Source: Arcobacter sp. EP1 (lineage in GTDB: Bacteria > Campylobacterota > Campylobacteria > Campylobacterales > Arcobacteraceae). From it: a DNA stretch of 57,349 nt. Below, one piece after another: positions 1 through 19,757 of the stretch. Each line of letters begins with the position of its first letter. The first letter of the stretch is position 1. Position numbers and translations under genes: made by a program. The notes beneath the pieces are model-generated. The model had not been told where the DNA came from. It saw only the letters and a program-made list of their open reading frames with translations, and did not search any database. The stretch spans positions 225,030-282,378 of the forward strand of contig LPNY01000021.1 of assembly GCA_001655195.1 (NCBI GenBank), in the 5' to 3' direction.

Positions 1-192
1 CGTATCGGTATCAGTATCGGTATCCGTGTCAGTATCTGTATCTGTATCCGTGTCGGTATCAGTGTCTGTGTCTGTATCAGTATCTGTGTCAGTATCGGTA
101 TCAGTGTCAGTATCAGTGTCGGTATCTGTGTCTGTGTCCGTGTCGGTATCAGTATCTGTATCCGTGTCCGTGTCAGTATCTGTGTCTGTGTC
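1..192 (-). repeat. (Thr-Asp)n coding repeat, 32 units visible
   Basis: On the minus strand every codon pair is ACN-GAY, giving 32 consecutive Thr-Asp units that continue past the window edge. All four Thr codons and both Asp codons are mixed, so the DNA is not a perfect microsatellite. This suggests selection on the peptide and also limits slippage. The opposite strand reads as Ser-Val in another frame, which is a by-product. Confidence 0.95.
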
Positions 193-795
193 ACCCTCTG
201 GGTTTCCACCATCTGTTTCTAAGAAGGTTACATCATCATCAGTAAGTTCTAATCTATCTCTAGCGACTAACGCATTATCTTCAATTAAAGGAGAATCATT
301 AAGTCCAGGAGTAGCAGAACCATCACCTTCACCTCCACCAGCTGCAGCTGCATCAAGTGCTGAAGTTAAAGAACCAAAGTCATCAATAATAATACCATTA
401 GTATTACCTTCATCTAATGCAGACTGTTCTAATGTTGCTCGTAAATCATCAAGAATTTCTTGCCCATTAAAATCATTATTAGCTAAAGCTGCCTTGATGT
501 CTTCTGTTCCATCAAGATCGTTTGCAACGGCAACTGCTGATATTTTATTAACATCATCAGGATTATTTGCAGTAATAAGATCAACCATATTTTTAAACAG
601 TATTTCTACAGGTTTACCGTCTACCTGCACAAATAAGTTAATTGATTGTTCCCCCTCTGCGAGGTTAAAGTAGTACTCTCCATGATTATCATCAAAGTAG
701 AACTGTTGTCCCTCTTCTGGGTTAATAACCATATTCTCCGTAACTTCTATCTGTTCAACACTTCCGTCGGCGTTTCTGACATAAAGTAACATCAT
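1..795 (-). CDS. N-terminus of a large type I secreted repeat adhesin (partial)
   Basis: The gene runs off the left edge; 265 codons are visible. ATG at 793-795 (a second ATG follows directly) sits behind the ribosome site AAGGA. Residues 1-200 form a compact acidic domain without a signal peptide. Residues 202-265 are an unbroken Thr-Asp dipeptide repeat. A run of four Ala followed by Gly (residues 149-153) resembles the di-alanine LapG cleavage site in the N-terminal retention module of LapA-type adhesins. Absence of a Sec signal, the repeats, and a complete type I secretion system upstream on the same strand all fit a large RTX/LapA-like adhesin. The C-terminal secretion signal and calcium repeats would lie outside the window, so the family is inferred, not proven. 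A TATAAT-like -10 at 912-917 could give it its own promoter. Confidence 0.75.
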   Translation of the reverse strand, partial: MMLLYVRNADGSVEQIEVTENMVINPEEGQQFYFDDNHGEYYFNLAEGEQSINLFVQVDGKPVEILFKNMVDLITANNPDDVNKISAVAVANDLDGTEDIKAALANNDFNGQEILDDLRATLEQSALDEGNTNGIIIDDFGSLTSALDAAAAGGGEGDGSATPGLNDSPLIEDNALVARDRLELTDDDVTFLETDGGNPEGDTDTDTDTDTDTDTDTDTDTDTDTDTDTDTDTDTDTDTDTDTDTDTDTDTDTDTDTDTDTDTDT

Positions 796-978
796 AAGAT
801 CCTTTTTTGACACGATTTTACTAATGATAACAAAAGAAAGTCTTCAAAAAGTTTCTTAATAATTAAATTTATAGTATTATTTTTTAGTTTTGTGTTCTAA
901 AAAAAAGAATAATTATACAGACTGTTAGTGATTATTTGGGAATTAGATAATTTAATATATTATAAATTATTTTTTAGG

Positions 979-1807: not shown

Positions 1808-2899
1808 TTATTTAGTTATATACTTTTTTAGTAATTTGCAAAATAGTTTTATATCATCAACATTTATTTCCCCGATATTTGCTACTCGAAAAGTATTAAA
1901 CTTTTCTACTTTTCCAGGATAGATAGTAAATCCTTTATTAAAAAAGTAGTCATGCATATCATTAAAATTAATATGTTCTGGGATAAATATAGAAGTAATT
2001 ATCTTTGAGTGATACTCATCATCAACAAGATACTTTAAATTCATCTTTTTTAATTCACATGTAAGTTTCTCCCATGACTTAGAATATCTTTTATATCTAT
2101 TCTCTATACCTTCTTCATTGCATTCAATAATAGCTTGTTTTAAACTATATAATGTTTGTACAGGAGGTGTAAAACGCATCTGATGCGAGTCTAAAAAGTT
2201 TCTATACTGAGCATATAAATTTAAATAAAAATTTCTTTCTTTAAGGTCTTTAGATTGTTCTATTGATTTTTTATTTGCAATTACAAAACCAATACCTGCC
2301 ATACCTTGAATATTCTTATTAGAACTTGCACATAAATAGTCAATATTCTGCTCCTTCATATTAATAGGAATTGCAGCATAGGAACTCATTGCATCTACAA
2401 TAAATGCTAATTTAAATTTTTTCGCTATTTTCCCTAAATCATGTAAGCTATTTAATAAACCGGTAGTTGTTTCATTATGAACAACTGCTAAGTGAGATAT
2501 AGATGGGGTTTTTGAAATAGTTTTCTTGAGTTTTTTTAAATCAATAGGCTTGATTGATGAACTTTTAAATTCAATATAATTGATACCGTAAGATTGCACA
2601 ATTTGGCACATTCTTTTTCCATACGCTCCATTATTAACAATTAAAACTGTTTTATCTTGAGGAATAACACTACTTAAAACAGACTCAACAACTGCCGTGC
2701 CACTACCTCCAAATAGAACCGTAGTATACAATTTTGGCTTTGCAACAATCTTAGTTAATGCTAAAGAAACATACTCCATTAAATCACCAAATTCTTTCTC
2801 TCTTGGACAAATATCAGGAACAACTTGTGCATATTTCACACTATCTGTTGTTGTAGCAGGACCTGGATTTAATAATACATTTCGTTTAATTAATTTCAT
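1808..2899 (-). CDS. phnW: 2-aminoethylphosphonate--pyruvate transaminase
   Basis: A PLP-dependent fold type I aminotransferase of 363 residues, the usual PhnW length. It starts with the family signature LLNPGPATTT, and the likely PLP lysine is K195 in SSNKNIQG. PhnW interconverts phosphonoacetaldehyde and 2-aminoethylphosphonate using alanine/pyruvate. Next to PEP mutase and phosphonopyruvate decarboxylase it should run in the synthetic direction, making AEP. The ATG overlaps the PntC stop (ATGA), with AAGGAAAG upstream. No phosphonoacetaldehyde hydrolase (phnX) is nearby, which argues against catabolism. Confidence 0.93.
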   Translation of the reverse strand: MKLIKRNVLLNPGPATTTDSVKYAQVVPDICPREKEFGDLMEYVSLALTKIVAKPKLYTTVLFGGSGTAVVESVLSSVIPQDKTVLIVNNGAYGKRMCQIVQSYGINYIEFKSSSIKPIDLKKLKKTISKTPSISHLAVVHNETTTGLLNSLHDLGKIAKKFKLAFIVDAMSSYAAIPINMKEQNIDYLCASSNKNIQGMAGIGFVIANKKSIEQSKDLKERNFYLNLYAQYRNFLDSHQMRFTPPVQTLYSLKQAIIECNEEGIENRYKRYSKSWEKLTCELKKMNLKYLVDDEYHSKIITSIFIPEHINFNDMHDYFFNKGFTIYPGKVEKFNTFRVANIGEINVDDIKLFCKLLKKYITK

Positions 2900-3618
2900 G
2901 CTCTTTCCTTAATTTTTGGTAATATCTGAGAAAGTGCTCTAATTAAATGATTTTCATCATCTATTTCACACCAGATTAAATTTTCAATTTTTTTTACATA
3001 AAAAGGGGTCTCGTTAGAAGTCTTTACCATAATATACTCATAATCAATTTTGGGGTTATCTTGATTTTCAAAAGCACTGCACATTAATTGATACCTAAAT
3101 TGAGAGACTTTAGAAATACCAACTAGCTCTGCAAAAATAGATGTTAACTCTTCTTTATTTTTTGACATTTTAATCAAATTACATCGCTCATCAGTTTCAA
3201 TATAAACTTCATCATTTGAGTATGTCGTTCCACTGGCTAAAATTGCGTCACTTTGTTCTTCACTCAAAAGGTATTTTAATGCAGATACTTCATACAATAA
3301 ATCACTCTCCAGAAGAATAAAATCATCCTTAACAAGATCTTTCATATTATAAAGGGTATACATACTACTTGTAGTCTCATATTTATCACTTTTTATACAA
3401 GTAATTTGAGGATATATGTCAGCTAATCTTTCATAAAACTCACTTAAGTATCCTGTGCCAATATAAATTTTTTCAAAACCACAAGAAATAAGGTTCTCAA
3501 TACTTCTAATGATTAATGATTTACCTTCTATTTCCAAAAAACCTTTTGGTTTTTCTTTGGTACGTTCCTTCAAACGGCTTCCTAAGCCAGCAGCTAAAAT
3601 AACAGCTGTTTTAACCAT
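2896..3618 (-). CDS. pntC: CTP:2-aminoethylphosphonate cytidylyltransferase
   Basis: A 240-residue nucleotidyltransferase of the GT-A-like sugar/choline-phosphate cytidylyltransferase fold. The N-terminal nucleotide-binding signature is LAAGLGSRL followed by KPKGFLEI, and an ESDLLYE segment resembles the metal-binding region. In this context the expected reaction is CTP + AEP to CMP-AEP + PPi, the activation step before AEP is attached to a lipid, glycan or other acceptor. LicC-type phosphocholine cytidylyltransferases are close relatives, and only the phosphonate neighbours favour PntC. It overlaps the upstream decarboxylase gene by 8 bases and has a GGAG ribosome site 7 bases before ATG. 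Confidence 0.85.
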   Translation of the reverse strand: MVKTAVILAAGLGSRLKERTKEKPKGFLEIEGKSLIIRSIENLISCGFEKIYIGTGYLSEFYERLADIYPQITCIKSDKYETTSSMYTLYNMKDLVKDDFILLESDLLYEVSALKYLLSEEQSDAILASGTTYSNDEVYIETDERCNLIKMSKNKEELTSIFAELVGISKVSQFRYQLMCSAFENQDNPKIDYEYIMVKTSNETPFYVKKIENLIWCEIDDENHLIRALSQILPKIKERA

Positions 3619-4741
3619 TAATAAACTCCATTAATCTCTTTTTCACTTCAAATGGTTTTACTTTGGGTCGTCCAAGATTCTCTTTCGTTCCTTTTTTCAC
3701 ACGAATATATACAAATGTCAATGAAGGATTCTTCATCCAACTCAAAATTACCTCTTCAAGCTCTTTAAGATTATGTACATAAATACTTTGCTCATAACCT
3801 ACACTTGATGAAACTTGAACAAAATCAATGTTACTTGATACTGTAAACTGTCCACCTGTTGAATCATGTATGTTATTATCAATTAAGATATGTAGCATAT
3901 TTTTTGGTGAATAATAGGCATTTGTAGCTAGATTTCCCATACGCATAAGAAGGGCACCATCACCATCGATTGCAATTGTATTTTTATTGCTATTCAACGC
4001 AATTCCTAGCCCAATCGAACTAATACTTCCCATACTTCCTACCATATAAAGATTATTCTTTGCATCATCTATTTCATAAAGTTCTCGACCGGTCTTACCC
4101 GTAGTTGCTAGAAGAACTGTATTTTCACACTTTGTTTTACTTATTGTTTCTAATACATTTAATCTCAATGGTAAACTATCTTCTTGAGACTTATTGATTT
4201 GTAGTTGATTAGCAACTTTATTAATCACTTGTTCTTTTAAATCAACTTTATCAAAAGTGCCTTTTTTTACCACGAAGAAAAAAGACTCATCATTTAGTAT
4301 AGCTTCATCAGCTCGAGCTAACTGTTCTAAAACCTCATTAAAATCTGCACTTAAATACTCCCATTTTACATTCATGAGTTCTAACATTTTTTCAGTAATC
4401 GTCCCCATCAATTCATGTTGTGGTTCATCAGAAAGTCCAGGTTCACCCCGAAGACTGACGAAACCTAAAACAGGTAATTGAAAAGAGTAGTTTAGAGAAG
4501 TTATAGGAGATGTTGCATTAGTTAATCCACTATTTTGCATAAGAACAACCGACTTTTTACCGGCTAAATATGCACCTGCACTTGTTGCTACAGCATCACC
4601 TTCATTAGCACTCATTACATAATCACATTCATTAATAGCATAATTAATTAAATTATTTAAAAAACTACAAGGAACACCACTATAAAAATCAAACCCTAAT
4701 TTTTTAAGCTCATCGCCAAACTTATAGGTATCAAGTGCCAT
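3611..4741 (-). CDS. aepY: Phosphonopyruvate decarboxylase
   Basis: A 376-residue thiamine-diphosphate enzyme. The N-terminal half has FYSGVPCSFL and the ANEGDAVATSAGAYLAG region (ThDP-activating Glu). The C-terminal half has the ThDP/Mg motif beginning IDGDGALLMRMG (about residue 256) and ending near the double Asn of LIDNN. Length and motifs match Ppd, which converts phosphonopyruvate to phosphonoacetaldehyde and CO2, the irreversible step that pulls PEP mutase forward. The ATG overlaps the upstream stop by one base (TAATG), a typical translationally coupled junction. Confidence 0.93.
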   Translation of the reverse strand: MALDTYKFGDELKKLGFDFYSGVPCSFLNNLINYAINECDYVMSANEGDAVATSAGAYLAGKKSVVLMQNSGLTNATSPITSLNYSFQLPVLGFVSLRGEPGLSDEPQHELMGTITEKMLELMNVKWEYLSADFNEVLEQLARADEAILNDESFFFVVKKGTFDKVDLKEQVINKVANQLQINKSQEDSLPLRLNVLETISKTKCENTVLLATTGKTGRELYEIDDAKNNLYMVGSMGSISSIGLGIALNSNKNTIAIDGDGALLMRMGNLATNAYYSPKNMLHILIDNNIHDSTGGQFTVSSNIDFVQVSSSVGYEQSIYVHNLKELEEVILSWMKNPSLTFVYIRVKKGTKENLGRPKVKPFEVKKRLMEFING

Positions 4742-6042
4742 TACTTTGTTCCTGGAATTAGTTCTAAAATTGATTTAATTGACATACAATCTGGCTCTGC
4801 TTCCAAGGAACGTTTATGTTTTAAAATTGATTTTGCAACATTCATCATTCCAGGATAAGCAGCTCTTAGCATATGGTTTGCATAAATTACAATATTCACA
4901 CCAATTTTTGCAAATTCATCAGTTGTAACTGAGTTAAATGAGGTTGGTACAACAACAATTGGTGTTGATAAATCTTTTTCTCTAAATCTTGTTACAAACT
5001 CAATAATTTCTGCAGGGTCTTTCAATCTTGAGTGAATCATTATTCCATCTGCACCCGCTTCTACATAAGCAAATGCCCGTGATAAAGCATCATCCATTCC
5101 CACTTCTAAAATTAAACTCTCAATACGTGCAATGACCATAAAATCTTTAGTAATTTGTGCTTGTTTACCCATTCTTATTTTATGAGAAAAATTTTCTATA
5201 CTATCTTGTGTCTGTGCTACATCATTTCCAAAAAGTGAGTTCTTCTTTAATCCCGTTTTATCTTCAATAATAACAGCACTAACACCTGTTCGTTCTAAAC
5301 TACGTACTGTAAATTCAAAATGTTCTGGCTTACCACCAGTATCTGCATCATAAATAAGTGGTTTTGTTGTTACTTCAAATATTTCATTAATTGTTGTAAG
5401 ACGCGCTGTTGTATCGACCGCTTCTATGTCAGGTTTTCCTTTAGAGGTAGAATCTGTCAATGAACTTGACCACATTCCATCAAAAGAAACAACTTCTCCA
5501 TCTTCAACTGTTTCAGTAGCATTTTCAGCAATAAGACCACTAAGAGCATTATGAATTTCTAATATTTTCACGACAGGTTTCGCTTCAATAAGTTTTCTTA
5601 AACGTGATTGTCTAGCAGTAGATGTTATTCCAAGTTTAGCCATTTGTTCTTTGATATGAATATCATTAATCTCTTTACTATAAGGAATTTCAACCAAATC
5701 TCCCCCACTCTCTTTCAATACATTAAGAACTTCTTCTCGATACTTTTTTTGAGAATTACTTTTCCAATCATCTCCATGAACAACAAAATCTGGTTTTAAA
5801 AGTTGAATATTTTCTTTATAACTTGCTGATTTTTGAGGTATAACATTTGCAACCATCTTAAGGTTTTCTAAAACATCTTTACGTTTTTCATAGTCTAAAT
5901 AAGGAACATCATTTAACTCACCACAAGCTTCTAGTGTTAATAAACCAACCGTTACTTCTCCAAGTTTTTCTGCCTCTTTTAATACATTAATATGTCCGGC
6001 ATGTAATAGATCTGCAATTAAACTTACATAGACTTTTTTCAT
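4741..6042 (-). CDS. aepX: Nucleotidyltransferase--phosphoenolpyruvate mutase fusion
   Basis: A 433-residue two-domain protein. Residues 1-130 are a TagD/GCT-like cytidylyltransferase domain with the HAGH motif at 14-17. Residues about 155-430 are PEP mutase of the isocitrate lyase superfamily. They carry the diagnostic motif EDK-x5-NS (EDKTGLKKNS, starting near residue 259), which separates true mutases from lyases and hydrolases, plus YDADTGG for the metal site. It makes phosphonopyruvate from PEP, the entry step of C-P bond biosynthesis. The N-terminal domain is an established but poorly assigned fusion in this family. The PntC fold is unrelated, so this operon encodes two nucleotidyltransferases. 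Ribosome site AAAGGG, five bases before ATG. Confidence 0.93.
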   Translation of the reverse strand: MKKVYVSLIADLLHAGHINVLKEAEKLGEVTVGLLTLEACGELNDVPYLDYEKRKDVLENLKMVANVIPQKSASYKENIQLLKPDFVVHGDDWKSNSQKKYREEVLNVLKESGGDLVEIPYSKEINDIHIKEQMAKLGITSTARQSRLRKLIEAKPVVKILEIHNALSGLIAENATETVEDGEVVSFDGMWSSSLTDSTSKGKPDIEAVDTTARLTTINEIFEVTTKPLIYDADTGGKPEHFEFTVRSLERTGVSAVIIEDKTGLKKNSLFGNDVAQTQDSIENFSHKIRMGKQAQITKDFMVIARIESLILEVGMDDALSRAFAYVEAGADGIMIHSRLKDPAEIIEFVTRFREKDLSTPIVVVPTSFNSVTTDEFAKIGVNIVIYANHMLRAAYPGMMNVAKSILKHKRSLEAEPDCMSIKSILELIPGTK

Positions 6043-6067: not shown

Positions 6068-9000
6068 TTAAATGTTAAATTTTTTTTCAAATGACCCAAG
6101 TTTAAAACTTGGTTCCCCTATAATTAGAACCATATCATTAGATTCTATCTGTTTATCCAATATAACTTCAATTTCATTAACCGTTGTTGCATGGACATTA
6201 AAATCAATTTCTCTATTAATAATATCCATACTTACTTTAATATTATCACCTAAAGTTACAATATTTTGTATAACTTCTGCCTCATTGATAAATTTTACTA
6301 ATTCAATATGCTGTTGTTTAATATAATTATTTGATTTTTCATTTATTAAATCTGAAATAACAACTATAAGTTTACCCTTGTATCCAATATTAATACAATC
6401 TTCAATCGCAGATTTAAATATCTCTAAATTAATCTTATGCGCATGTAAATAAAGAGAAAAGTCTATCTCTTTGTTTTTTAGCCTATGAAATGTACCTGAG
6501 GTGGGTAAAGATAAACAGTTATCAAACATAGAAGCTGCTAATTCAATATCATAACCTAAATTATAGGCTGTCAACAATGTTCCCACACTCATTAAGGGTA
6601 AGTAAGATTGATATGAACCAATTATATAATTTAGACGATGACCCAGAATATCTACTTCAACATTCCATTTCATTTTTTCTCGATTAAAATCAGCTTTTAT
6701 TAAACGTCCAATATCCTCTTTTTCTGTGCCATATGTTTGAATTGCAATATCACGTCGTTGCATTATTGCATCCATTAGTTTATCTAAATATGGTGTTTGT
6801 GAATTAATAATACATAATCCCCCATCTTTTATTCCATCAACAATTGCTGCATGAGCACCTATTTCATCATCAATTAACCCATAATCTTCTATGTATCTTG
6901 TATCAAAATTTGTTATCATACAAACATCAGGAAGTATCGCTTTTGAACGATGTCGAACAGGATTAACTCTTGTTGAAATATCAACTTCATTAATCTCAAG
7001 ATTATCGGTTAATCTTAAGTTGGCAAGTGATGCCATAATATGTGCTGTTTTATTATCACTGTCCATTAATGTATGTACATTTATCTGAGCCTTTAAAATT
7101 GAAACCAAAAGGCTTTTTGCAGCTGTTTTTCCATATGAACCTGTTACGGTAACTGCTTTACAATTAACTTCTTTTCGCACAGCTTTAGCGACATCATAAA
7201 GAGCATCATCAACATCTTTCACATATAAAGCAGGTAATGATGAACTACGTGCAATATCTATATTATCAACGACAATTGCAAGAACTCCTTCTTGCGATAA
7301 ATATTCAATATATTCTAAAGGGCTTTCATAGCTATGATGACTCCACGAAGATAGATTTCTAAAAAAGAATAATTGATTTAACTCCTTACTCTCTTCTACC
7401 GTAATAGCTTCAAATCGTAATTTTTCAACCTTTTCACTCAGCACATTCATCCATGTTCCCTTCGTGATTTGGGTTAAACGAGCAGGTATTAAATAGAGAT
7501 AATGAGCGCGATAGTCCCCTTTCTCTTTTTGCATATCAAATATTAAGTCAGCATAAGGAGATAGCCTTGATATAACGCCTTTAGAGAGTTTTTTAAAAGA
7601 CTCAATAGCTTCTAATTTTGCATCCTTAATTGAATAATCATAAATCACAGCTTCTGGATTTTCTAATAAAAGTTTTGTATTCTCTATTCCACCTTTTATC
7701 TCTTGAGCAAACTCTTCAACTGATAACTCAATATCAATATTTGGATCATATAAAATTGCGGCTAAAAATCCATTAAAAAGCAGAAGATGATTCATTAATA
7801 ATGCTATTGCAATTCGTCCATTTCCATCAGGGAAAGGGTGCAAAATTTCAATATTTCGTGCAATTCGTGAAATTGCAATAAGCTTCTCATCATCACTTTT
7901 AGCACGCTTTATTTCTTCATTATACTCATGGATAATCGCATCTAATCGTGAAGCAAATCCTCTTTGTATAAAATGTTTCACCTCATAAAATTTATCTAAA
8001 TCACCATCTTCATGTAAGGCATCTAGTTGCTCTACGGTAAGAGAAGGATACCAAGGTCTAAATCGTAGTCTTTTTTTATGTTGTAATGTTGAGAATATTT
8101 CTTCAGCACTAAACTCATCAGCAGGCTTTTCAAATCCACGAACATGAAACAATGGCGTACCATCACCCTTTCTCATATTAATTATTTCTTGGATACTGTT
8201 CAAAGTTGAATATCGTGCATAGATATTCAATCCTGCTTCTAAAAAACGCATATCTCCAGGTGTTGATTTTGGATTACTTGTAATAACATTCTTCATAATA
8301 AGCCCATGCAAATTTCTAACATACGAAGGTTGTAATCCTTCTGTCAGATCAAAATTATCAAGCATGTAAGCATATGCTTTTAACAAAGCAGGAACGGAAC
8401 CTCTTTCATTATTTTCATAACCAACCCAACCTTCATACTTTTTATGAAACCTTCCATCTACAAAGAAACGAAAAAATTGACGATGATCAAATTTTGCCAT
8501 TTTAGCTAATGCTTCCATACCCTTTTTTAATAATAAAGGATTTCTCTTTACCTTATTTGTGTTCTGAATCATTTTAATTTTTCCTAAAATATTAGCTTCA
8601 TTATTTTCTGTATAAAACCAAGGATTACCTATCTCTTTAAATAACAATTTTATATCACTTATTTCTTCACGTTTAGTTAGGAACTTCAATATACTGGATA
8701 CATCTTCACTTTTTTCAGCTGAACATAATACAACTTGACCGTTATTCGCATACTTTTTTATCTCATCAAGGTGTTCAAATGGCACATTTTGATGGGTTTC
8801 ATTCCACTCTTTCTTAACAATTTTATCCATGGAAAGAGAAAATACACAACGCAAAGGTAAACTGCTAACTTTTTCAACTAAGTTTTTTATTTTTTTAATT
8901 GAATAACTACTATCAATTTCAAGCACTAATACTTCTGGTAAATACTTTATATCCGCAGTTAATAAATCTAATAGCTCGCGAATATTTGTATACTTATATC

Positions 9001-10639
9001 TATTAAAAGTTTTTGCATTTAAGGATATTCCCCACTGTTTGACTATCTCTTTTTTAATGAGTTTTTGCATGCACAAAGCAGCATTTAACCATAATTTTTT
9101 CCACTCTCTACGCTTACATAAACTATATTCTAGACCTTCTAAAACAAAAGTATCTAAGCACTCTATTCTTAAATCTTTCACTATATCTAAAACCGTTTTT
9201 TCTAAAAATACCGGCTGTATGGAATAACCATAAAGTAAATCTTTTTCTGTGACAATATGAGTCATTGATAATTCTTCATCAATCCACTTTGTATAGTTTC
9301 TTTCATCCTCTAAATCATAAACACAAGCCCCACCTTTAGAGAGTAGCCATGGAGATTTTATCATTGGTATTTGATCTTTTAATAGTTCCATTCCTTGATA
9401 TACAATGCGCTGGGTTTTACGAATGGAGCTATTAGTAGAAATACTTATTATTGGCACCATATATGTCATGGCCTCAACGATAGTACTTATAGTTGAATCA
9501 GTAAAACGTCTCATATCCAAGCCAAAGACTACTCCATCATCAAGTGCACAGTTGTCTTTTTGGAATAAGTAGTGATTTACCGCTTTTCGCGACTTGATTG
9601 CAATCTTACACGCATTTGCACGATCACTATTTGAGCCCAAACAATTTTGAGTAGCAATACGATTTAAGTTACCTCCACCATGTCTATAAATACCAACATC
9701 CTCATCAAAAAGCCAAAGGCCACCTCGCCAATTTGCTTCATGTAACCATACTTTACCATTATTATCAATCGCCATATCCAAAGCAATTTCTTCTGAACTA
9801 TTATTTGACAAGTCATCTAATTCTCGGGTGATTTTAATAGCGGCACTAAACAATTCATCATAAACGGTATGAACATTTTGTTTATATTTATACTTTAAAA
9901 AAGCATCTAAATCTATATTCTTAGAACCTGCATCACGGTTTGCTATAATACTTTTTTGTTTTGCAAGTAAGGACATTAGCGTATTACACGTATGCCAATC
10001 ACCATCTTTGCCCTTACTTACAATCACACGTACATTAAAATAACGTTCTCCAGGTCCTGTTCCTGCTGCAAACTGCTGCAACATATATTCTCGTGATGCA
10101 TCAATAAACTTTGATTTAATTAATGCTTTAAAAGCCTTTTCATCTAAACAGGTAACTTGACCATTATCATTGATTTCAAACTCATTATCAATCATTTTAA
10201 CAAAAACAATTCCTTGCCCTAACCGACCAGTAGAAGGTTTAAATAATCCATTTCCCCAAACTTTTATTTGCTTAAATATTTTTTGAACATTGTGTACAGT
10301 AATGGTTTTAGGAATATATTCAGAAGTACTTGGCAAACGACTAAGAAAGTCTAATTGGTCATCTTTTTGAACAATAAAACCTAAAGAGTAAGGAACTAAA
10401 TCTAATATTTTATCACTTTTACCTTTTCGCTCAAAGTTACGAATTGCATCTGGAAAACGAACTCTTTTTTCTCTCCATTGTCCATTTCTCCACGTCTCAC
10501 CTAGGATAGTTCTTGTTTTGAAATCAATATCATTATTTGTAAAACGTATGAATTCTGCACCCTGTACTGCAACATCTGCAGCTATTGCATATGCCCATTG
10601 TCCAATTCCGCCACGATCTAAAAACCCCAATAATGCCAT
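6068..10639 (-). CDS. Giant ATP-grasp / AKR-like / Fic / MurF-like fusion enzyme
   Basis: A 1523-residue protein whose whole architecture I do not recognise. Residues 1-330: YheC/YheD-like ATP-grasp, with the nucleotide-binding segment LFKPSTGRLGQG near 132-143 and the metal-site segment LDMAIDNNGKVWLHEANWRGG near 285-305. Residues about 365-680: degenerate TIM-barrel-like stretch resembling aldo/keto reductases (weak call). Residues about 715-990: Fic domain with HPFPDGNGR at 934-942; the motif's usual last Arg is Ile945. Residues about 1010-1523: MurF-like ligase with P-loop TGSYGKT near 1165. The usual MurF Asn-x3-Ala-His segment is altered, and the C-terminal domain looks short. No signal peptide or membrane segment, so cytosolic. 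ATG overlaps the ribosome site region of the preceding gene's end. It lies directly before the PEP mutase gene, pointing to peptide-like ligation plus transfer chemistry linked to AEP. Confidence 0.85.
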   Translation of the reverse strand: MALLGFLDRGGIGQWAYAIAADVAVQGAEFIRFTNNDIDFKTRTILGETWRNGQWREKRVRFPDAIRNFERKGKSDKILDLVPYSLGFIVQKDDQLDFLSRLPSTSEYIPKTITVHNVQKIFKQIKVWGNGLFKPSTGRLGQGIVFVKMIDNEFEINDNGQVTCLDEKAFKALIKSKFIDASREYMLQQFAAGTGPGERYFNVRVIVSKGKDGDWHTCNTLMSLLAKQKSIIANRDAGSKNIDLDAFLKYKYKQNVHTVYDELFSAAIKITRELDDLSNNSSEEIALDMAIDNNGKVWLHEANWRGGLWLFDEDVGIYRHGGGNLNRIATQNCLGSNSDRANACKIAIKSRKAVNHYLFQKDNCALDDGVVFGLDMRRFTDSTISTIVEAMTYMVPIISISTNSSIRKTQRIVYQGMELLKDQIPMIKSPWLLSKGGACVYDLEDERNYTKWIDEELSMTHIVTEKDLLYGYSIQPVFLEKTVLDIVKDLRIECLDTFVLEGLEYSLCKRREWKKLWLNAALCMQKLIKKEIVKQWGISLNAKTFNRYKYTNIRELLDLLTADIKYLPEVLVLEIDSSYSIKKIKNLVEKVSSLPLRCVFSLSMDKIVKKEWNETHQNVPFEHLDEIKKYANNGQVVLCSAEKSEDVSSILKFLTKREEISDIKLLFKEIGNPWFYTENNEANILGKIKMIQNTNKVKRNPLLLKKGMEALAKMAKFDHRQFFRFFVDGRFHKKYEGWVGYENNERGSVPALLKAYAYMLDNFDLTEGLQPSYVRNLHGLIMKNVITSNPKSTPGDMRFLEAGLNIYARYSTLNSIQEIINMRKGDGTPLFHVRGFEKPADEFSAEEIFSTLQHKKRLRFRPWYPSLTVEQLDALHEDGDLDKFYEVKHFIQRGFASRLDAIIHEYNEEIKRAKSDDEKLIAISRIARNIEILHPFPDGNGRIAIALLMNHLLLFNGFLAAILYDPNIDIELSVEEFAQEIKGGIENTKLLLENPEAVIYDYSIKDAKLEAIESFKKLSKGVISRLSPYADLIFDMQKEKGDYRAHYLYLIPARLTQITKGTWMNVLSEKVEKLRFEAITVEESKELNQLFFFRNLSSWSHHSYESPLEYIEYLSQEGVLAIVVDNIDIARSSSLPALYVKDVDDALYDVAKAVRKEVNCKAVTVTGSYGKTAAKSLLVSILKAQINVHTLMDSDNKTAHIMASLANLRLTDNLEINEVDISTRVNPVRHRSKAILPDVCMITNFDTRYIEDYGLIDDEIGAHAAIVDGIKDGGLCIINSQTPYLDKLMDAIMQRRDIAIQTYGTEKEDIGRLIKADFNREKMKWNVEVDILGHRLNYIIGSYQSYLPLMSVGTLLTAYNLGYDIELAASMFDNCLSLPTSGTFHRLKNKEIDFSLYLHAHKINLEIFKSAIEDCINIGYKGKLIVVISDLINEKSNNYIKQQHIELVKFINEAEVIQNIVTLGDNIKVSMDIINREIDFNVHATTVNEIEVILDKQIESNDMVLIIGEPSFKLGSFEKKFNI

Positions 10640-10640
10640 C

Positions 10641-12476
10641 TTACATCCCTACTTTATTAAAGTTAAGTTGATTATAAACTCTTAATAAGCTCATGTTGGA
10701 AGAAAACTCTTCTATTTCTTCTTCTAAAATATCTTCAGATAACACAACAACATTAAAGTTCATTTCATGCAGCATTTTAAGGGTTAACAAATCTGCTGTC
10801 TTCATTCGTGTTGCAATAGTGGTAAAGTATTTACAGTTTTTTGATAATAACTGGAGTTTTTTTAAGAGTTCAAAAGCAGGTTTATTTCTTACATTAAAGA
10901 AAATAACACCCCATTGTTTAGCTTGTCCTAGATGACACATCTTTTCAAACCATTCAATCATATTGTTTAAAGCTTTATCTTGTTCACTTTGATTTAAACC
11001 TCGTAACCCTAGTTCAATATCTTCTATCCACATCAAATCTAAGTTATCTCCTCCAACAAGATAAGGTTCGATCTGTTCATACTGTTTTTGTAGTAACGGT
11101 GGACGAATGGAGCGCATATACTCTGTTTCTGACCAACGAATAATACCCGTGCCAAGATAGTCTTCTAATGCAAGTATACTTTGACGATACCCTTGAACTC
11201 TATCATTTAATGCAAAGCCAACCCTAAAAGACAAAAACACATTTCGTTGGTCTTTAGCTTGACATATATCATGTATAAATTGACGACTCCCATGCCCAAT
11301 ACTTACATCAATCCATTGCGTATTATTTTCTAAAATTGTATCACACTCTATTGGCTTTAAAATTTTTCGAGATGTTATTCCATAAGGAGGAATTGTTTTA
11401 TCTTCTTTGTGCTTGGATTCTAGTTTTTTTCTTTTGGAAGAAATCTCTTGTTCTTTCATTAAACCTTGAGAAAACTGTACTATATTTCTATAAAATTCTA
11501 AATGCCTTCCTGGAGCACTATATCCAATGGTCCGTGGTTCGATATTTACTAATTTTGGCATGAGCTTTTCATCTAATAAAAATTTTAAACCAATAGAACA
11601 CGGAGCACCCTCTATTAACTCCTCAAGTCGTCGAGCAATACATACAGATAAACGTTGCAGTTTCAAATTTATATGTAATCCTCTTTTATATCTAGAAGGA
11701 AATTGAAAATAAGTGACATCATCCATTAATAGTGGTGTACCTATGAACTCTCCACCTGAACATAATGAAGCAATAGGTCCACGAGTAGAGTGTATACCTC
11801 TTACTATTGGCGAAAGCCAAGAGCCATCAAAACGTTGTTGAACGACTAAATTAAAAGCTATTGATCTTTTTTCCTTTGACAAAGCCTCTACATAATCTTG
11901 GATAAAGTATCCATCTAAATCTAAATCATTTAAAAAAACTTCTAGCTCTTTTAAGGTTAAAAGTCTCTCTTCATAAGGTAGAGAAATTTTCCACTTATGT
12001 CCTTTTTTAAAAATAACAATAATTTTAGGTTGGATTGTATTATTTTTTGATTTTATAATGATTTTTTTTGATATTTTCAAAATCTCTTTTATTTCAGAAA
12101 AACTACTTATTCCTTTAATAGGAACAATAACCTCTTTAAAATCATCATCTTGTATTAATAACTGAAGTAATTCATAACTATTTTGATCAATTCTTTTATT
12201 ATGTGGTAGCTTATTTAGAAGTAATTTCTCTTCTTTAGAGCGTGAGCTATTTGGAAGTGTAAAATCTAAAAGAACGTCAGGACAAAAAGGTTCTTTAATA
12301 TCAATCCAATCTCCCTGTATACACTCTTGGGCAAAAATCTTTAAATCACTTTGAATATTTTCACTTAAAAAACGTACAAAGTTTATGCTCTCTAATAACA
12401 TAGGCCCAACTAATAAATCTGAACGAACTTTAGAAAAATTATCTTCTTTACTATAAAGCATCCCAACTGTTATCAT
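10641..12476 (-). CDS. ATP-grasp (YheC/YheD-like) protein with AKR-like C-terminus
   Basis: A 611-residue cytosolic protein. Residues about 100-345 look like a YheC/YheD type ATP-grasp: a lysine-rich nucleotide-binding region, then IAFNLVVQQRFDG, GGEFIGTP, and the metal-binding end KLVNIEPRTIG near 307-317. Residues about 375-600 follow an aldo/keto reductase plan: a strand plus GHGSRQFI, then LSFRVGF, then NLDLMWIEDIE, then a helix and QWGVIFFNV. The usual catalytic Tyr/Lys are not obvious, so this part may be non-catalytic. The arrangement parallels the first half of the downstream 1523-residue protein, suggesting duplication. The two genes are one base apart. ATP-grasp enzymes form amide or ester bonds from acyl-phosphates; the substrate here is unknown. 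Confidence 0.75.
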   Translation of the reverse strand: MITVGMLYSKEDNFSKVRSDLLVGPMLLESINFVRFLSENIQSDLKIFAQECIQGDWIDIKEPFCPDVLLDFTLPNSSRSKEEKLLLNKLPHNKRIDQNSYELLQLLIQDDDFKEVIVPIKGISSFSEIKEILKISKKIIIKSKNNTIQPKIIVIFKKGHKWKISLPYEERLLTLKELEVFLNDLDLDGYFIQDYVEALSKEKRSIAFNLVVQQRFDGSWLSPIVRGIHSTRGPIASLCSGGEFIGTPLLMDDVTYFQFPSRYKRGLHINLKLQRLSVCIARRLEELIEGAPCSIGLKFLLDEKLMPKLVNIEPRTIGYSAPGRHLEFYRNIVQFSQGLMKEQEISSKRKKLESKHKEDKTIPPYGITSRKILKPIECDTILENNTQWIDVSIGHGSRQFIHDICQAKDQRNVFLSFRVGFALNDRVQGYRQSILALEDYLGTGIIRWSETEYMRSIRPPLLQKQYEQIEPYLVGGDNLDLMWIEDIELGLRGLNQSEQDKALNNMIEWFEKMCHLGQAKQWGVIFFNVRNKPAFELLKKLQLLSKNCKYFTTIATRMKTADLLTLKMLHEMNFNVVVLSEDILEEEIEEFSSNMSLLRVYNQLNFNKVGM

Positions 12477-12486
12477 TATTACTTCT

Positions 12487-14313
12487 TTATTTCATTTCAT
12501 TATATAATCGTGCAAAAAAACAAGCGGTATGTTGTACAGAATCAACCCTCACCCATTGGCGTGTTAATTTGAATCTAAAACTATCAATACTTTTTTGAGG
12601 ATATTTATGTGCAAATGTTGATTCTTTTGTATGTAGTGTATGCATTAAACCTTTTGCACTCAATAACATTGCTTGCATTATTTTTTCTGCTTCTTCATCA
12701 CGTTTCAAATATTTTGCTAGATTATATGCAGCAATTATCCCTTCACAACGTGAACCATCATGATAAACATGGTCACCATAGTTATAAAAGAATCCTCCAA
12801 TATAATCTCGTGTTGTAGAAGATGTATTATCTTTTGTATACATTTTTTCAATCATTGTATAGGTATCATCAAATACAAATTGAATATAAGACTCTTTTTT
12901 TAGACTATCAACTTTAACCCATTCTTCAATTGCCTGCATCAACCAAGCATCAGCTGGTAATTCAGGAAAAAGGTGGGGATACTTAACAGGTCGTTCATGG
13001 ATTAAGAAATCAAGGGCTAATTCAGATTTTTGAGCAATCTTAGCTTTAAAATCTTTTGGTATACGGTTAAAACTACGATAATACATCGCTAATCCAAGTA
13101 AAGCTTCTCCAGGATAATAAAATGAAAAAAGTTCCTCTTTTAATTTTCCAGTAGGATTTATAATTGGTTTTCCGTTATTCACAAGAGGATGAATATAATA
13201 TCCTATCATTTCACCATCACTATCAATGCGAGATAATATATGTCGAACAAGCCCTGTAATATACTTGTTATAGGATTTATCCCCCGACATTTTATAGTAA
13301 TGCATCATGGCAATTAGTCCAATACCAGCACCACCAAGCTTTGACTTTCTATTAAAGAAAGGGAAACAGGCAAATCGTTCATCAACTTCATGAGTTTTAA
13401 ATGTTGAAATATAAAAATCTATAGATCTCTTAGCAGCAGATAGATACTTTTTATCTTTAGTTAGTTCATAAGCTCTCAACAGTGTAACTGTTCCACCACA
13501 ATGACGCAAGATATTATTATATAAAGGATTTTTCATATTCGGATGTGCAAAATCAACAACACTATCTTTAATCCCATCATAATAGTATAAAAATCGTCCA
13601 TCATCATACATATTATCCATCATCCAATCAACACTCTTTAGCATACTTTCATAGACAATTCCTTTATCAAATGGGACATTTTCAGGATAACCTCTATATA
13701 GTTTAATGACGCTGTTTTCGTAACTAATATAAGCAATTGATTCAATCAGTTTATACTCAATAGGTTCACGTCGCATCAAATGAACACGCTCAATAATCTT
13801 ATTTGTTTGTCGCGCGATTGGTGTTTTTTTCGACATAAAGTTCAGTACTTGCTTAACACTCATAATACTATGTGTTATTGCATCTGTTGGCATAAAATAA
13901 CGCAAATTCCCTTGATATGAGTACTTCAGTCCATACAATCCTGGTTCAAATCTATTTTCATTAAATTTTAAAACTGTCAATCTTCTTATATCTACTTCTT
14001 TTTCAGAAGTAACCATCTCAAACATTATTCTGCACTTAGAACCATCTTCAAGTGCGAAATCATTAAGTTTCATATTTTCATTTAACTTTAAAACCACACG
14101 TATAATAGTTTTCTCAAAAGTTTCTCGTTTTGATCCCCAACGTAAAAGCTTATTACCTTCTTGGAACAAGGTAATATATATTTGTGAAATTTTGGGGTTA
14201 AATTCTTTTTGAATATTTTTCAATGTAGGTAAATGAATTGCACTGCGATTAATCAAAGCTTCACGTATTGAATTAATAAGTAATTGTATCTCTTGGTTTG
14301 TATCTTTATTCAT
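12487..14313 (-). CDS. AMMECR1-like domain fused to an alpha/alpha-barrel protein
   Basis: A 608-residue cytosolic protein. The N-terminal ~190 residues resemble AMMECR1: paired strands, then EPGLYGLKYSYQG and FMPTDAI followed by VLNFMSKKTPI, in the place of the family's LP..-fL..l..K end. Residues about 205-605 form repeated helical hairpins with aromatic and Gly-rich turns (YDDGRFLYYYDG, GGAGIGLIAMM, FYYPGEALLGL, YHDGSRCEGI), typical of an (alpha/alpha)6 toroid as in glycoside hydrolases, uronate epimerases or lanthionine-type enzymes. I cannot assign a reaction. Its place between type I secretion genes and the ATP-grasp genes, with 10 bases to the next gene, makes it part of the same pathway. 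Related AMMECR1 domains have suspected roles in small-molecule or radical chemistry. Confidence 0.65.
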   Translation of the reverse strand: MNKDTNQEIQLLINSIREALINRSAIHLPTLKNIQKEFNPKISQIYITLFQEGNKLLRWGSKRETFEKTIIRVVLKLNENMKLNDFALEDGSKCRIMFEMVTSEKEVDIRRLTVLKFNENRFEPGLYGLKYSYQGNLRYFMPTDAITHSIMSVKQVLNFMSKKTPIARQTNKIIERVHLMRREPIEYKLIESIAYISYENSVIKLYRGYPENVPFDKGIVYESMLKSVDWMMDNMYDDGRFLYYYDGIKDSVVDFAHPNMKNPLYNNILRHCGGTVTLLRAYELTKDKKYLSAAKRSIDFYISTFKTHEVDERFACFPFFNRKSKLGGAGIGLIAMMHYYKMSGDKSYNKYITGLVRHILSRIDSDGEMIGYYIHPLVNNGKPIINPTGKLKEELFSFYYPGEALLGLAMYYRSFNRIPKDFKAKIAQKSELALDFLIHERPVKYPHLFPELPADAWLMQAIEEWVKVDSLKKESYIQFVFDDTYTMIEKMYTKDNTSSTTRDYIGGFFYNYGDHVYHDGSRCEGIIAAYNLAKYLKRDEEAEKIMQAMLLSAKGLMHTLHTKESTFAHKYPQKSIDSFRFKLTRQWVRVDSVQHTACFFARLYNEMK

Positions 14314-14370: not shown

Positions 14371-15720
14371 TTATCGTTCATGAAATGCATTCTGTTTAGT
14401 TTTTAAGATAGGTTTTAAAAGGAAATCTAAAATGGTTTTTTTACCTGTTACAATATCAACGCTTGCAATCATTCCAGGGATAATTGGTAATCTTTTTCCA
14501 TTTTTTTCTAAGTAATTACGTTCTGTTTTAAGAATAACACGATAATAACTTTGCCCATCTTTTGATTCTTTATCAACAATACTATCTGCTGAAATCTCAA
14601 TAATTTGCCCCTCTAATCCACCATAAATTGAAAAATCATAAGCAGTTAATTTAACCATTGATTTTTGACTTGGATTGATAAATGCAATATCTTTAGGGTC
14701 TATCTTAGCTTCTACTAATAGATTGTTACTAACTGGAACAATCTCTATAATATCCGTACCCGATTGAATAACTCCACCAATTGTATTTTGATTAATTTGT
14801 TTAATAATACCATCAACAGGCGAGCGAATAACTGTTTTAGCAACTTTATCCACATCAGAGATAAGTTTTGCCTCTAATTTATTGATTTCACCTGTGGTTT
14901 TATTTAATTCCCCTGCTGATTCTGATTTAAATGCATTTATTTTTTCTTTAATTCTATTTTCTGCTTCATTAATAGCTAGTTTTGAACGAGAAATAGAAAG
15001 TTCTGCTGTTTCTAAATCTCCACGAGTCTGGTTATACTCTTTTTCAGCATTAAGTAAATCATAATTAGATTTTACACGCGACTTTACAAGTCTTCGTATC
15101 GTTTTACGCTGTTCTTTAATAAACTCTAGATTTCGTTTTAAGTTTCGAATAGTACTCTCAATCTCTTTTAGCTCTTGTCGTTTTTGTCCAAGTTGATTAC
15201 GAAGCACTCGAATAGATGATTTTAATTCGTTGACACGTTTTATAAAAAATTGATTTTCAACCAAATCATAGCGTGATTTATCTTCTAAAATTCGATTAGG
15301 GAAGATGATTTTAGGCATAGTTTTATTAATATCAATATTTACTTCAGCCTGAAGCCGTGTTCGAATAGCAAGTAATCCTAAATAAGCTTGTAAACTCTCC
15401 TCTAAAGAGGCTTGAAAACGTGTTGTATCTACTTTGAGTAACGGGGCACCTCTTTTGACAGTTTCACCCTCTTTAACTAAAATCTCAGATAGAATTCCTC
15501 CATCAAGAGACTGTATCCTTTGAATTTTTCCAGAAGGAATAATTTTTCCATTTCCACGTGCAAGTTCATCTATCTCTGCAATTGCAGCCCAAAGGATACC
15601 TACTGTAACAATACTACATATCATTACGAAAACAAAGATAGATATATTTGAAGCCCGCTCGTTTGAATAAGCGTACATAGTACTAACGTATCTTAAATCT
15701 TCGTCTTTATTGGTACTCAT
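14371..15720 (-). CDS. Type I secretion membrane fusion protein, HlyD/LapC family
   Basis: A 449-residue periplasmic adaptor. There is a short cytosolic N-terminus, one membrane helix at about residues 27-47 (IFVFVMICSIVTVGILWAAI), a lipoyl-like half ending GGILSEILVKEGETVKRG, a long coiled-coil hairpin (about 130-270) rich in Lys/Glu/Arg, the second lipoyl half VIRSPVDGIIKQI, and beta-barrel domains. It joins the inner membrane ATPase to the TolC-like channel. The ATG overlaps the ATPase stop (ATGA), so the two are translationally coupled. Length and order match LapC/PrtE proteins that export large adhesins. Confidence 0.93.
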   Translation of the reverse strand: MSTNKDEDLRYVSTMYAYSNERASNISIFVFVMICSIVTVGILWAAIAEIDELARGNGKIIPSGKIQRIQSLDGGILSEILVKEGETVKRGAPLLKVDTTRFQASLEESLQAYLGLLAIRTRLQAEVNIDINKTMPKIIFPNRILEDKSRYDLVENQFFIKRVNELKSSIRVLRNQLGQKRQELKEIESTIRNLKRNLEFIKEQRKTIRRLVKSRVKSNYDLLNAEKEYNQTRGDLETAELSISRSKLAINEAENRIKEKINAFKSESAGELNKTTGEINKLEAKLISDVDKVAKTVIRSPVDGIIKQINQNTIGGVIQSGTDIIEIVPVSNNLLVEAKIDPKDIAFINPSQKSMVKLTAYDFSIYGGLEGQIIEISADSIVDKESKDGQSYYRVILKTERNYLEKNGKRLPIIPGMIASVDIVTGKKTILDFLLKPILKTKQNAFHER

Positions 15721-17878
15721 TGCCGTTTACCTGTTAGTTGTTTAAGTACTTCTTCTTTTGTATCATCAATAACAATATTACCATCTTCAACAATAATAAT
15801 CCTATCCACAAGCTTTAACAAAGATGTTTTATGAGTTACGATAATTAGTGTTTTATCCCCGATGACTGTTTGTATTCTATTTAAAAAGAGTTTTTCTGTT
15901 TGCTTGTCCATAGAGTTAGTTGGCTCATCAAGCATTAATATATTCGGATTTGAGATAAGAGACCTCGCTAATGTTACAGCTTGTCTTTCACCACCGGATA
16001 AGCCTTCACCTCGTTCACCTACTTGTAAATCAAAGCCCGCTTCATGTTTTCCAATGAAATCACTTACTCCTGTGATATTTGCTACTTTTAGAATCTCTTC
16101 ATCTGTTGCGTATTGCTCACCAATAGTAATATTATCTTTTATTGATCCCATAAATAAAAATGGCTCTTGTGGTACCATACCTATAGAACGCCGTAAATCG
16201 ACTGGGTCAATTTGTCTTGTATCAACACCATCAACTAAAACGGAACCTGATGTTGGTTCATGCAAATTTAAAATAAGTTTTAAAAGTGTTGATTTACCAG
16301 AACCAATTTTCCCTAAAATCGCAACTCTTTCACCTTGTTTTATTTTAAGATTAATTGTTTTAAGTACTTTAAATTTTTGACTAGGATATGAATATTCAAC
16401 ATCTTTTAACTCGATGGTTCCATGTAGGTTTGGCCGAGAGATATAAGCTTTATTCTCTTTTTCAACTGGCATATTCATAACTTCATCAAGATTTTTTATT
16501 GCAAGTAGCGTTCTATCAAACTTAACAAACATACTCACCATTTTAGCTACTGGAGAAATTGCTCTACCATTTAACATCATAGCTGCAATAATAACCCCCA
16601 TAGTAATTTCACCTTCACCTGCTAGATGCACACCAAAAGTAACCACAGCAACCTTAGAAAGTGTATTTAAATAACCAGTAAGATAAGTTGTTATTTGAGA
16701 AAGGTGATGAGATTTTTCTGATTTTTCAACAGTTTTTACAATAGACTTATCCCAGTGCGTTCGCATTCTGTTTTGAGCACGAATACTTTTGATAATTTCT
16801 AGTCCAGTAACCGTCTCAATAAGCGTTGTTTGCTTTATTTGCTCTTCTTTTACAGCCTCTTCAACAACTTTTTTAAGAGGTCTTTGCATATATAATGCAA
16901 TGATTATGGCAATACCAACTGAAGCTAAAGTAACATACACTAAAGGGCCACCTATAAAAAAAATAACACCTATAAAAATAATTGTAAATGGGAAATCCAC
17001 AAAAACAGTAACAGTAGCACTAGTAAAAAATTCTCGTACACTTTCAAAAGACTGTAAACGAGCAACAAATTGCCCCGTCGAAGCTGGTTTAGAATCAATT
17101 TTTATATTTAATAAGTGATCAAATATTTTATTAGACATAATAACATCAGCACGTTTACTGGCAATTCCCAAAAAATGACTTCGTAATATTTTCAGTACAA
17201 GATCAAAGGTAATCACAATTAAAATACCAATTGCAAAAGCCCAAAGAGTTTCAATAGCATTATTAGGCAAAACCCTATCATAAACATTCATCGTAAATAA
17301 TGGTACTGCTAAAACAAACATATTAATAAAAATAGAAACAATAATAACCTGTCTATAAATTGGAAAATTTCTTTTCATCGTTCCCCAGAACCAAGACTTT
17401 GGATTATCAATTAAAACATTATTATCAACACGGTTTTTAAAGTTATATTCCGGTTTAATAATTATACTCTCACCCATATATTCTGATTCAAGCTTTTTCA
17501 ATGAAATTCTAGTCGTTCCTTTGCTAAGTCCCGGAATAATAACATCAGCAGTATCGGTTTTAAGATTATATGATAAAAGAACACAATGTCGATCATTAGC
17601 TAAAAAAAGAACAATAGGAAGGGCAAGTTTTGTAATATTTCGAAGTTTTCTAGAAACTATTTTTTGGCTTAATCCTATACGCTCTGATGCTTGGCAGAAC
17701 ATATCATAGTTCATTGAAGTATTATGGATAGGAAGCCCATAAATTAAAGACTCTCGAGAAGTCTCTCTCTCTCATAATATTTTGCTAAAAATAAAAGACA
17801 CTCTAAAAGAGAGTCGACGGTTCTTCTCTCTTTTAAGTTATTTAAACTATCATTATCATTTAAATTATTTTCAGCCAA
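15717..17878 (-). CDS. Type I secretion ABC ATPase, LapB type, frameshifted near the 5' end
   Basis: The 665-codon open frame beginning at ATG 17714 lacks a ribosome site and starts in the middle of the N-terminal C39-like domain. The residues just upstream in that frame (ESLIYGLPIHNTS) are typical family sequence but run into a TGA at 17772-17774. The missing N-terminus lies in another frame: TTG at 17876-17878, six bases after AAGGG, encodes VDSLLECLLFLAKYYERE and stops at 17744-17746. The frames meet in a (GA)6 tract; losing one GA unit restores one ORF of about 720 codons. Downstream: six-helix ABC membrane domain (about 135-420), Walker A GKIGSGKST, signature LSGGERQ, Walker B ILMLDEPT. 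The C39-like domain lacks catalytic residues, as in LapB/HlyB. Either phase-variable, recently broken, or a sequencing error. Confidence 0.88.
17762..17773 (-). repeat. (GA)6 tract at the frameshift in the secretion ATPase gene
   Basis: Six GA units on the coding strand, about 35 codons after the TTG start. With six units translation from 17878 terminates after 44 residues; five or eight units would put the downstream frame in register. A short dinucleotide tract inside a surface-export gene is a classic slipped-strand site, although 12 bp is at the low end of length for fast switching. Confidence 0.8.
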
Positions 17879-19641: not shown

Positions 19642-19757
19642 TATAAAACTCCAGAACACAGATGTGATTTAAAATTATTGGTCCGCCCCACAATAAGTAT
19701 TTATAATATTATTTCAATGCTTAATCCTAGATAAACAAAAGCAAAATACTTCACTTT

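Follow-up and report, generated by a model that had tools for sequence, protein, structure and literature searches.

An AnkX-like Fic domain fused to a Mur ligase as a candidate transferase for CMP-aminoethylphosphonate in Arcobacter sp. EP1

CMP-aminoethylphosphonate (CMP-AEP) is widely made by bacteria, and the steps that follow its synthesis have been called enigmatic (PMC6697681). A 57,349-nt stretch of Arcobacter sp. EP1 contig LPNY01000021.1, hereafter the window, raises the question of whether a Fic domain encoded beside CMP-AEP genes could be the enzyme that uses this donor, as the original prediction for this locus held. The pathway claimed to lie beside the Fic domain is complete. 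Four genes on the minus strand encode a cytidylyltransferase (motif HAGH) fused to a PEP mutase (motif EDKTGLKKNS; 4741..6042; Pfam, NCBIfam and sequence), a phosphonopyruvate decarboxylase (3611..4741; TIGR03297), a 240-aa PntC-like CTP:AEP cytidylyltransferase (2896..3618; PDB search and contact residues) and the 2-aminoethylphosphonate aminotransferase AepZ/PhnW (1808..2899; TIGR03301); the PEP mutase, decarboxylase and aminotransferase all exceed curated cutoffs. Among solved structures, the 240-aa enzyme is closest to PntC of Treponema denticola (6pd1; E = 7e-64), which has been shown to make CMP-AEP (PMC6697681), and Glu104 and Glu194 of the window protein match Glu104 and Glu196, the AEP-amine contacts of the T. 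denticola enzyme. Within the cassette, the cytidylyltransferase joined to PEP mutase and the PntC-like one have distinct folds. Another genome (G263, L090:5803-10025) has a related CMP-AEP cassette, with PntC and AepZ fused, in a surface polysaccharide locus that lacks Fic; the PEP mutase fusion, PntC and AepZ of this cassette are 78%, 67% and 69% identical to those of the window, whose cassette may have been recruited from a locus of this kind.

Beyond what had been described, the Fic domain does not stand alone; it sits between an ATP-grasp and a MurF-like ligase domain in a 1523-aa fusion protein (6068..10639, minus strand, as are all features of this paragraph; ORF, Pfam and NCBIfam). From the N-terminus, this protein consists of a YheCD-like ATP-grasp domain (residues 90-308; 9716..10372; PF14398, E = 3e-32), a middle region, the Fic domain with its insert (residues about 708-1010; 7610..8518; Pfam, NCBIfam, PDB search and predicted fold) and a MurF-like ligase domain with the P-loop TGSYGKTAAK (residues 1109-1516; 6092..7315; Pfam and NCBIfam). 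Pfam places the Mur ligase middle domain at residues 1165-1317, and NCBIfam widens this to the MurF-like region. A second YheCD-like ATP-grasp protein, of 611 aa, is encoded at 10641..12476 (Pfam), and a relative of it adjoins Fic in two other loci (L053 and L054). The Pfam Fic model (PF02661) matches residues 902-949 with 27.8 bits against a gathering score of 24 (E = 4.6e-6). The Fic motif, HPFPDGNGRIAI (residues 934-945; 7805..7840), corresponds residue by residue to H934-P-F-P-D938-G-N940-G-R942-I-A-I945, in exact agreement with the predicted retention of H934, D938, G-N-G and R942 and replacement of the final Arg by Ile945. The catalytic His and phosphate loop, H-x-F-x-(D/E)-x-N-x-R, are represented by H934, F936, D938, N940 and R942, and these motif residues are invariant across 25 family sequences. 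By contrast, the second Arg of the AMPylator motif (GNGRxxR) is missing, its place being taken by I945 in the window and by S, A, I, V or L in 25/25 relatives.

Most characterised Fic proteins transfer a nucleotide. Given that H934 and the Fic core are intact, the domain could be an ordinary nucleotidyl transferase, an AMPylator or UMPylator, and serve to control the Mur or ATP-grasp activity of the protein it is part of. We regard this as very improbable: the final Arg is lost throughout the family, a search of residues 691-1040 of the 1523-aa protein for the inhibitory (S/T)xxxE(G/N) motif gave no match, similarity specific to AnkX spans the whole domain, including the region of the insert, and Fic is linked to a cytidylyltransferase, as described below. 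We likewise detected no ATP-type Fic family signal, which, with an inhibitory motif, the original prediction would have counted against itself.

AnkX of Legionella pneumophila (PDB 4bep, 4ber, 4bes, 4bet, 6sku) is a phosphocholine transferase. The NCBIfam AnkX model (NF043028) matches residues 716-1010 of the window protein over model positions 12-301 (E = 3.9e-30), at 104.7 bits against a full-length cutoff of 1400; no ankyrin repeats follow the Fic domain, and the C-terminal third of the protein is a Mur ligase, such that the protein is not a full AnkX equivalog. In a PDB sequence search, the closest solved structure to residues 693-996 is AnkX (E = 1.4e-22), with the next Fic protein at E = 0.019, and a profile built from five relatives widens this gap among solved structures (E = 1.6e-36 for AnkX, 2.6e-4 for the next Fic). 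As had been proposed for this domain, we also predicted its structure. An AlphaFold2 model made with 25 family sequences (mean pLDDT 86.4, pTM 0.88) retrieved eight AnkX chains at E of 1e-10 or below with Foldseek, followed by a match at E = 0.03. VIA-align superposed model residues 1-316 on AnkX 1-308 with Z = 23.8 (274 residues, 3.2 Å), well above every other Fic protein, the best of which was human FICD (Z = 12.3 over 192 residues). In the predicted fold, the extra residues aligned to AnkX include its insert region, residues 110-179 of AnkX (PMC7228754); by collinearity with AnkX, the equivalent insert of the window protein would occupy about residues 805-890 (7970..8227, minus strand). In AnkX this insert has been described as a CMP domain, which helps to hold CDP-choline the other way round and so makes phosphocholine the group that is transferred (PMC4177925). 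Taking the pocket positions of AnkX from PMC7228754 and PMC4177925, we found that E931 and N967 are the counterparts of AnkX E226 and N262, which lie close to the bound donor and from which it could be tethered; they are conserved in 23/25 and 24/25 sequences, respectively.

AnkX and the window domain thus have in common a Fic core with insert, the motif HPFxDxNGR, an N-terminal signature (FVDGRF...GW.GYE) and loss of the final Arg, which is also missing in AnkX. They would be expected to share their chemistry as well, in which CMP leaves and a phosphoalkyl group is transferred, although for the window protein this is a prediction. Unlike AnkX, the window protein has no ankyrin repeats after Fic and is not a secreted effector; its Fic domain is flanked by ATP-grasp and Mur ligase domains and belongs to a biosynthetic operon, its predicted donor is CMP-AEP or another CDP-amine, and its target is not a host GTPase. 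Judging from sequence, the window protein is not AnkX, but probably works as the Fic domain of AnkX does. Elsewhere in the genome, the AnkX model gave ankyrin matches that proved to be to the repeats only; one 431-aa ankyrin-repeat protein (24533-25828), encoded about 14 kb from the gene for the Fic protein, is probably unrelated to the AnkX repeats. A second AnkX-like Fic, stand-alone and divergent (HPFVDANARVF), is encoded near another Mur ligase in an Arcobacter-type genome (G088, L040:4976-5932).

When the whole 1523-aa protein was searched against plasmids and genome contigs, it returned generic Mur/ATP-grasp matches or nothing, and an alignment of the Fic domain was used instead. This search identified 20 loci in Burkholderiales, Methylococcaceae, Oceanospirillum, other Gammaproteobacteria, Magnetococcales, Desulfobulbus and Sulfurimonas, in addition to Arcobacter-type relatives. 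After removal of duplicates, the family comprises 24 genomes from three phyla (Campylobacterota, Pseudomonadota and Thermodesulfobacteriota), and all 24 carry a fusion of Fic with a Mur ligase. The N-terminal ATP-grasp domain is also present in the Burkholderiales copies, which are nearest by sequence (55%). A LicC/PntC-like cytidylyltransferase occurs in 23 of the 24 genomes, on the same contig as Fic and 2.0-16.4 kb from it in 21 of them and on another contig in two; in most genomes it is accompanied by an aminotransferase, and one genome (G052) additionally has a CPT-like kinase. The association extends to presence and absence: among 397 Campylobacterota genomes, the cytidylyltransferase (counted at E below 1e-75) is found in 6/6 genomes with Fic and 4/391 without (Fisher p = 4e-11, with related genomes treated as independent).

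The sole genome without a LicC/PntC-like enzyme is a Halieaceae MAG, in which the Fic-Mur gene is next to genes for a PEP mutase, a decarboxylase, an aminotransferase-like protein and a 135-aa cytidylyltransferase. Together with the window, this is one of 2/24 genomes with a linked phosphonate-type PEP mutase; other matches were weaker and distant. The phosphonate genes in both loci occupy the place of the donor cassette of relatives. The two Fic domains do not group in the Fic tree, which would suit two separate donor swaps; support near the window is modest. The idea that the family is always paired with phosphonates was thereby ruled out, and AEP is likely a minority donor in the family, given that only two of the 24 loci have a linked phosphonate-type PEP mutase. 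Overall, AnkX-specific homology, an AnkX fold with insert, the missing inhibitory motif and near-universal cytidylyltransferase linkage across the 24 genomes strongly support, at the level of sequence and model, an AnkX-type Fic whose predicted donor is a CMP/CDP-linked phosphoalkylamine rather than ATP. This part of the original claim of a CMP-AEP-dependent transferase is upheld, and AEP itself draws on the two phosphonate loci; from gene context, AEP is the likely donor in the window organism.

Is there another enzyme that could use this donor? As had been noted for the window, no classical CMP-AEP transferase was recognised: LicD, TagF-like (PF04464) and Stealth transferases were absent from the scanned window proteins, of which only CobS, encoded in a cobalamin cluster, is broadly of the CDP-alcohol-transferase type. 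Neither LicD (PF04991) nor PF04464 was detected in the whole genome, and no dedicated AEP transferase was found in the 32 kb scanned beyond the left edge of the window, where one just outside it would have spoken against a role for Fic. Among 12 Fic genomes tested, LicD was absent from all 12 and PF04464 from nine, including that of the window. In the four Campylobacterota genomes that have the cytidylyltransferase and lack Fic, the same aminotransferase-cytidylyltransferase pair lies beside a TagF-like PF04464 protein (three genomes) or a Stealth protein (one genome), and no relatives of these proteins were found among the ORFs of Fic loci. The simplest reading of this exchange is that Fic fills the slot of a CDP-X phosphotransferase. 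An alternative possibility is that CMP-AEP is used by another, unrecognised transferase of the locus, and that Fic has a different CDP-linked donor or a different job. The scarcity of PEP mutase in the Fic-Mur family and the Fic-less CMP-AEP cassette of G263 would fit this, and several conserved proteins in the loci of relatives belong to no known family and could be transferases. Nonetheless, we consider it unlikely, given that the genome lacks LicD and PF04464, that no other candidate emerged among the scanned neighbours, and that phosphonate genes replace the donor cassette of relatives in both phosphonate loci.

The gene neighbourhood also suggests an acceptor. The window begins within the gene for a putative type I-secreted adhesin, the N-terminus of which is encoded at 1..813 (minus strand), with an (Asp-Thr)n tract at positions 1-192 that runs off the edge; the gene continues for about 10 kb outside the window, and in the assembly Ns interrupt its tract. 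Also on the minus strand are type I secretion genes for an HlyD-like adaptor and ABC exporter (14371..17714) and a gene for a TolC-like outer membrane protein (17911..19659). Two relatives with single-contig genomes have putative secreted proteins with perfect Asp-Thr tracts, one of 2471 residues or 1235 dipeptides (L043:344-7756, minus strand) and one of 1485 residues or 742 dipeptides (L045:5564-10018, minus strand). Within uninterrupted tracts, Asp is encoded by a mixture of both its codons and Thr by a mixture of three or all four, all four being used in the tracts of these two relatives. This rules out simple DNA slippage products and suggests that what is maintained is the peptide rather than the DNA repeat. 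Either (Asp-Thr) tracts or (Asp-Thr/Ser) tracts, the latter pattern also admitting a few other codons, occur in 17/24 Fic genomes; the remaining seven show no tract, and most of these are fragmentary assemblies. In the 397 Campylobacterota genomes, (Asp-Thr) tracts are present in 5/6 genomes with Fic and 5/391 others (p = 2e-8, again treating related genomes as independent), and in three loci (L053, L054 and L056) the tract-bearing ORF is directly upstream of the Fic operon. Our literature searches returned no account of Asp-Thr tracts.

A 608-aa protein (12487..14313, minus strand) is a further companion of the tracts. Its predicted fold combines an N-terminal Foldseek match to 1zq7, an AMMECR1-family protein, with a C-terminal alpha/alpha barrel like that of AGE/GH76, a likeness that does not decide its reaction. 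It is 48-62% identical across distant loci and conserved in most Fic-Mur and Asp-Thr loci. A relative is fused to a Mur ligase in a single 1811-aa ORF (G049, L049:1-5433). Two genomes (G417 and G396; L110 and L111) have no Fic-Mur gene and nevertheless encode Asp-Thr tracts, the 608-aa protein and type I secretion components. The tract therefore does not require Fic, and it is accompanied more steadily by the 608-aa protein than by Fic, which is an addition.

The best explanation of the whole, to which we assign a probability of roughly 70%, is that the Fic domain is an AnkX-type phosphotransferase with CMP-AEP as donor, the product of which ends up on a type I-secreted Asp-Thr/Ser protein. 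We propose that H934 acts as general base, and that the phosphate bridge is bound by the D938/N940/R942 loop together with Mg2+ and the cytidine by the AnkX-type insert, such that the phosphoalkyl group would be transferred instead of the nucleotide and CMP would leave. With CMP-AEP from the adjacent genes, a hydroxyl would gain an aminoethylphosphonyl ester; relatives would use a CDP-linked phospho-amine made by the aminotransferase and the LicC-like cytidylyltransferase. The fused Mur and ATP-grasp domains may add amide-linked groups in the same pathway, and the product would decorate a cell-surface, type I-secreted protein with an (Asp-Thr/Ser)n tract before export.

The adhesin is a plausible acceptor, and co-occurrence lends the Asp-Thr tract circumstantial support in this role. 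A competing proposal, which differs in the acceptor step only and to which we give little short of an even chance, is that the same chemistry acts on a small peptide or polymer built by the fused ATP-grasp and Mur domains, one of whose hydroxyls would receive AEP or a phospho-amine, rather than directly on the adhesin. Indeed, the fusion of Fic to Mur and ATP-grasp ligases suggests such a peptide intermediate, which is equally compatible with the data: the Mur fusion is family-wide, the ATP-grasp fusion occurs in the window and in L053 and L054, and more Mur, LPG_synthase_C-like, PGA_cap-like and ATP-grasp proteins are encoded around Fic. Against this, in several lineages the same loci also encode Asp-(Thr/Ser) proteins and type I secretion components, and the strict alternation of carboxylate and hydroxyl in the tract would suit the amide ligases and the Fic transferase together. 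Returning to the secreted protein as acceptor, we suggest, tentatively and at odds well below even, that poly(Asp-Thr/Ser) of up to about 2500 residues, made on ribosomes and secreted by the type I route, is the backbone of a protein-templated zwitterionic surface polymer, in which Fic would esterify the alternating hydroxyls of Thr/Ser with aminoethylphosphonate or phospho-amines and the ATP-grasp and Mur ligases would amidate the alternating carboxylates of Asp.

Parts of this scheme resemble known pathways. Surface tailoring by Pnt and Lic systems, with PntC or LicC and LicD-type transferases, likewise uses CTP-activated AEP or phosphocholine (PMC6697681); unlike those systems, the window genome has no LicD-type transferase, and Fic appears to replace the final transferase. 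For the Type A flagellar glycan of Clostridioides difficile (CD0240-CD0244), a LicC-like cytidylyltransferase is proposed to make a CDP-amino acid, from which a phospho group would be moved to a protein-linked acceptor (PMC10714395). This is comparable to the Fic-Mur loci, except that the proposed final transferase of C. difficile is TagF-like, whereas the Fic-Mur loci have Fic and no TagF-like protein. Staphylococcal Ser-Asp repeat proteins, modified by SdgA and SdgB, are also surface adhesins with long tracts of Asp-hydroxyl dipeptides, and are densely modified (PMC3794999). They are, however, Gram-positive cell-wall proteins modified by glycosyltransferases, whereas the Fic-Mur loci have Asp-Thr tracts, type I secretion and a predicted phospho(no)-amine modification. 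Our literature searches returned nothing joining Fic with aminoethylphosphonate and nothing on Fic-Mur systems; a search on AnkX returned the known effector and reviews.

If the main reading is correct, a Fic transferase would be one of the steps that follow CMP-AEP synthesis, and Fic domains would have a role in phosphonate transfer. AnkX-type phosphotransfer would go from a single known effector to a biosynthetic family in at least three phyla, linked to perfect Asp-Thr repeat proteins. Should the tentative zwitterionic polymer also prove real, AnkX would be derived from this surface-biosynthesis family or share an ancestor with it.
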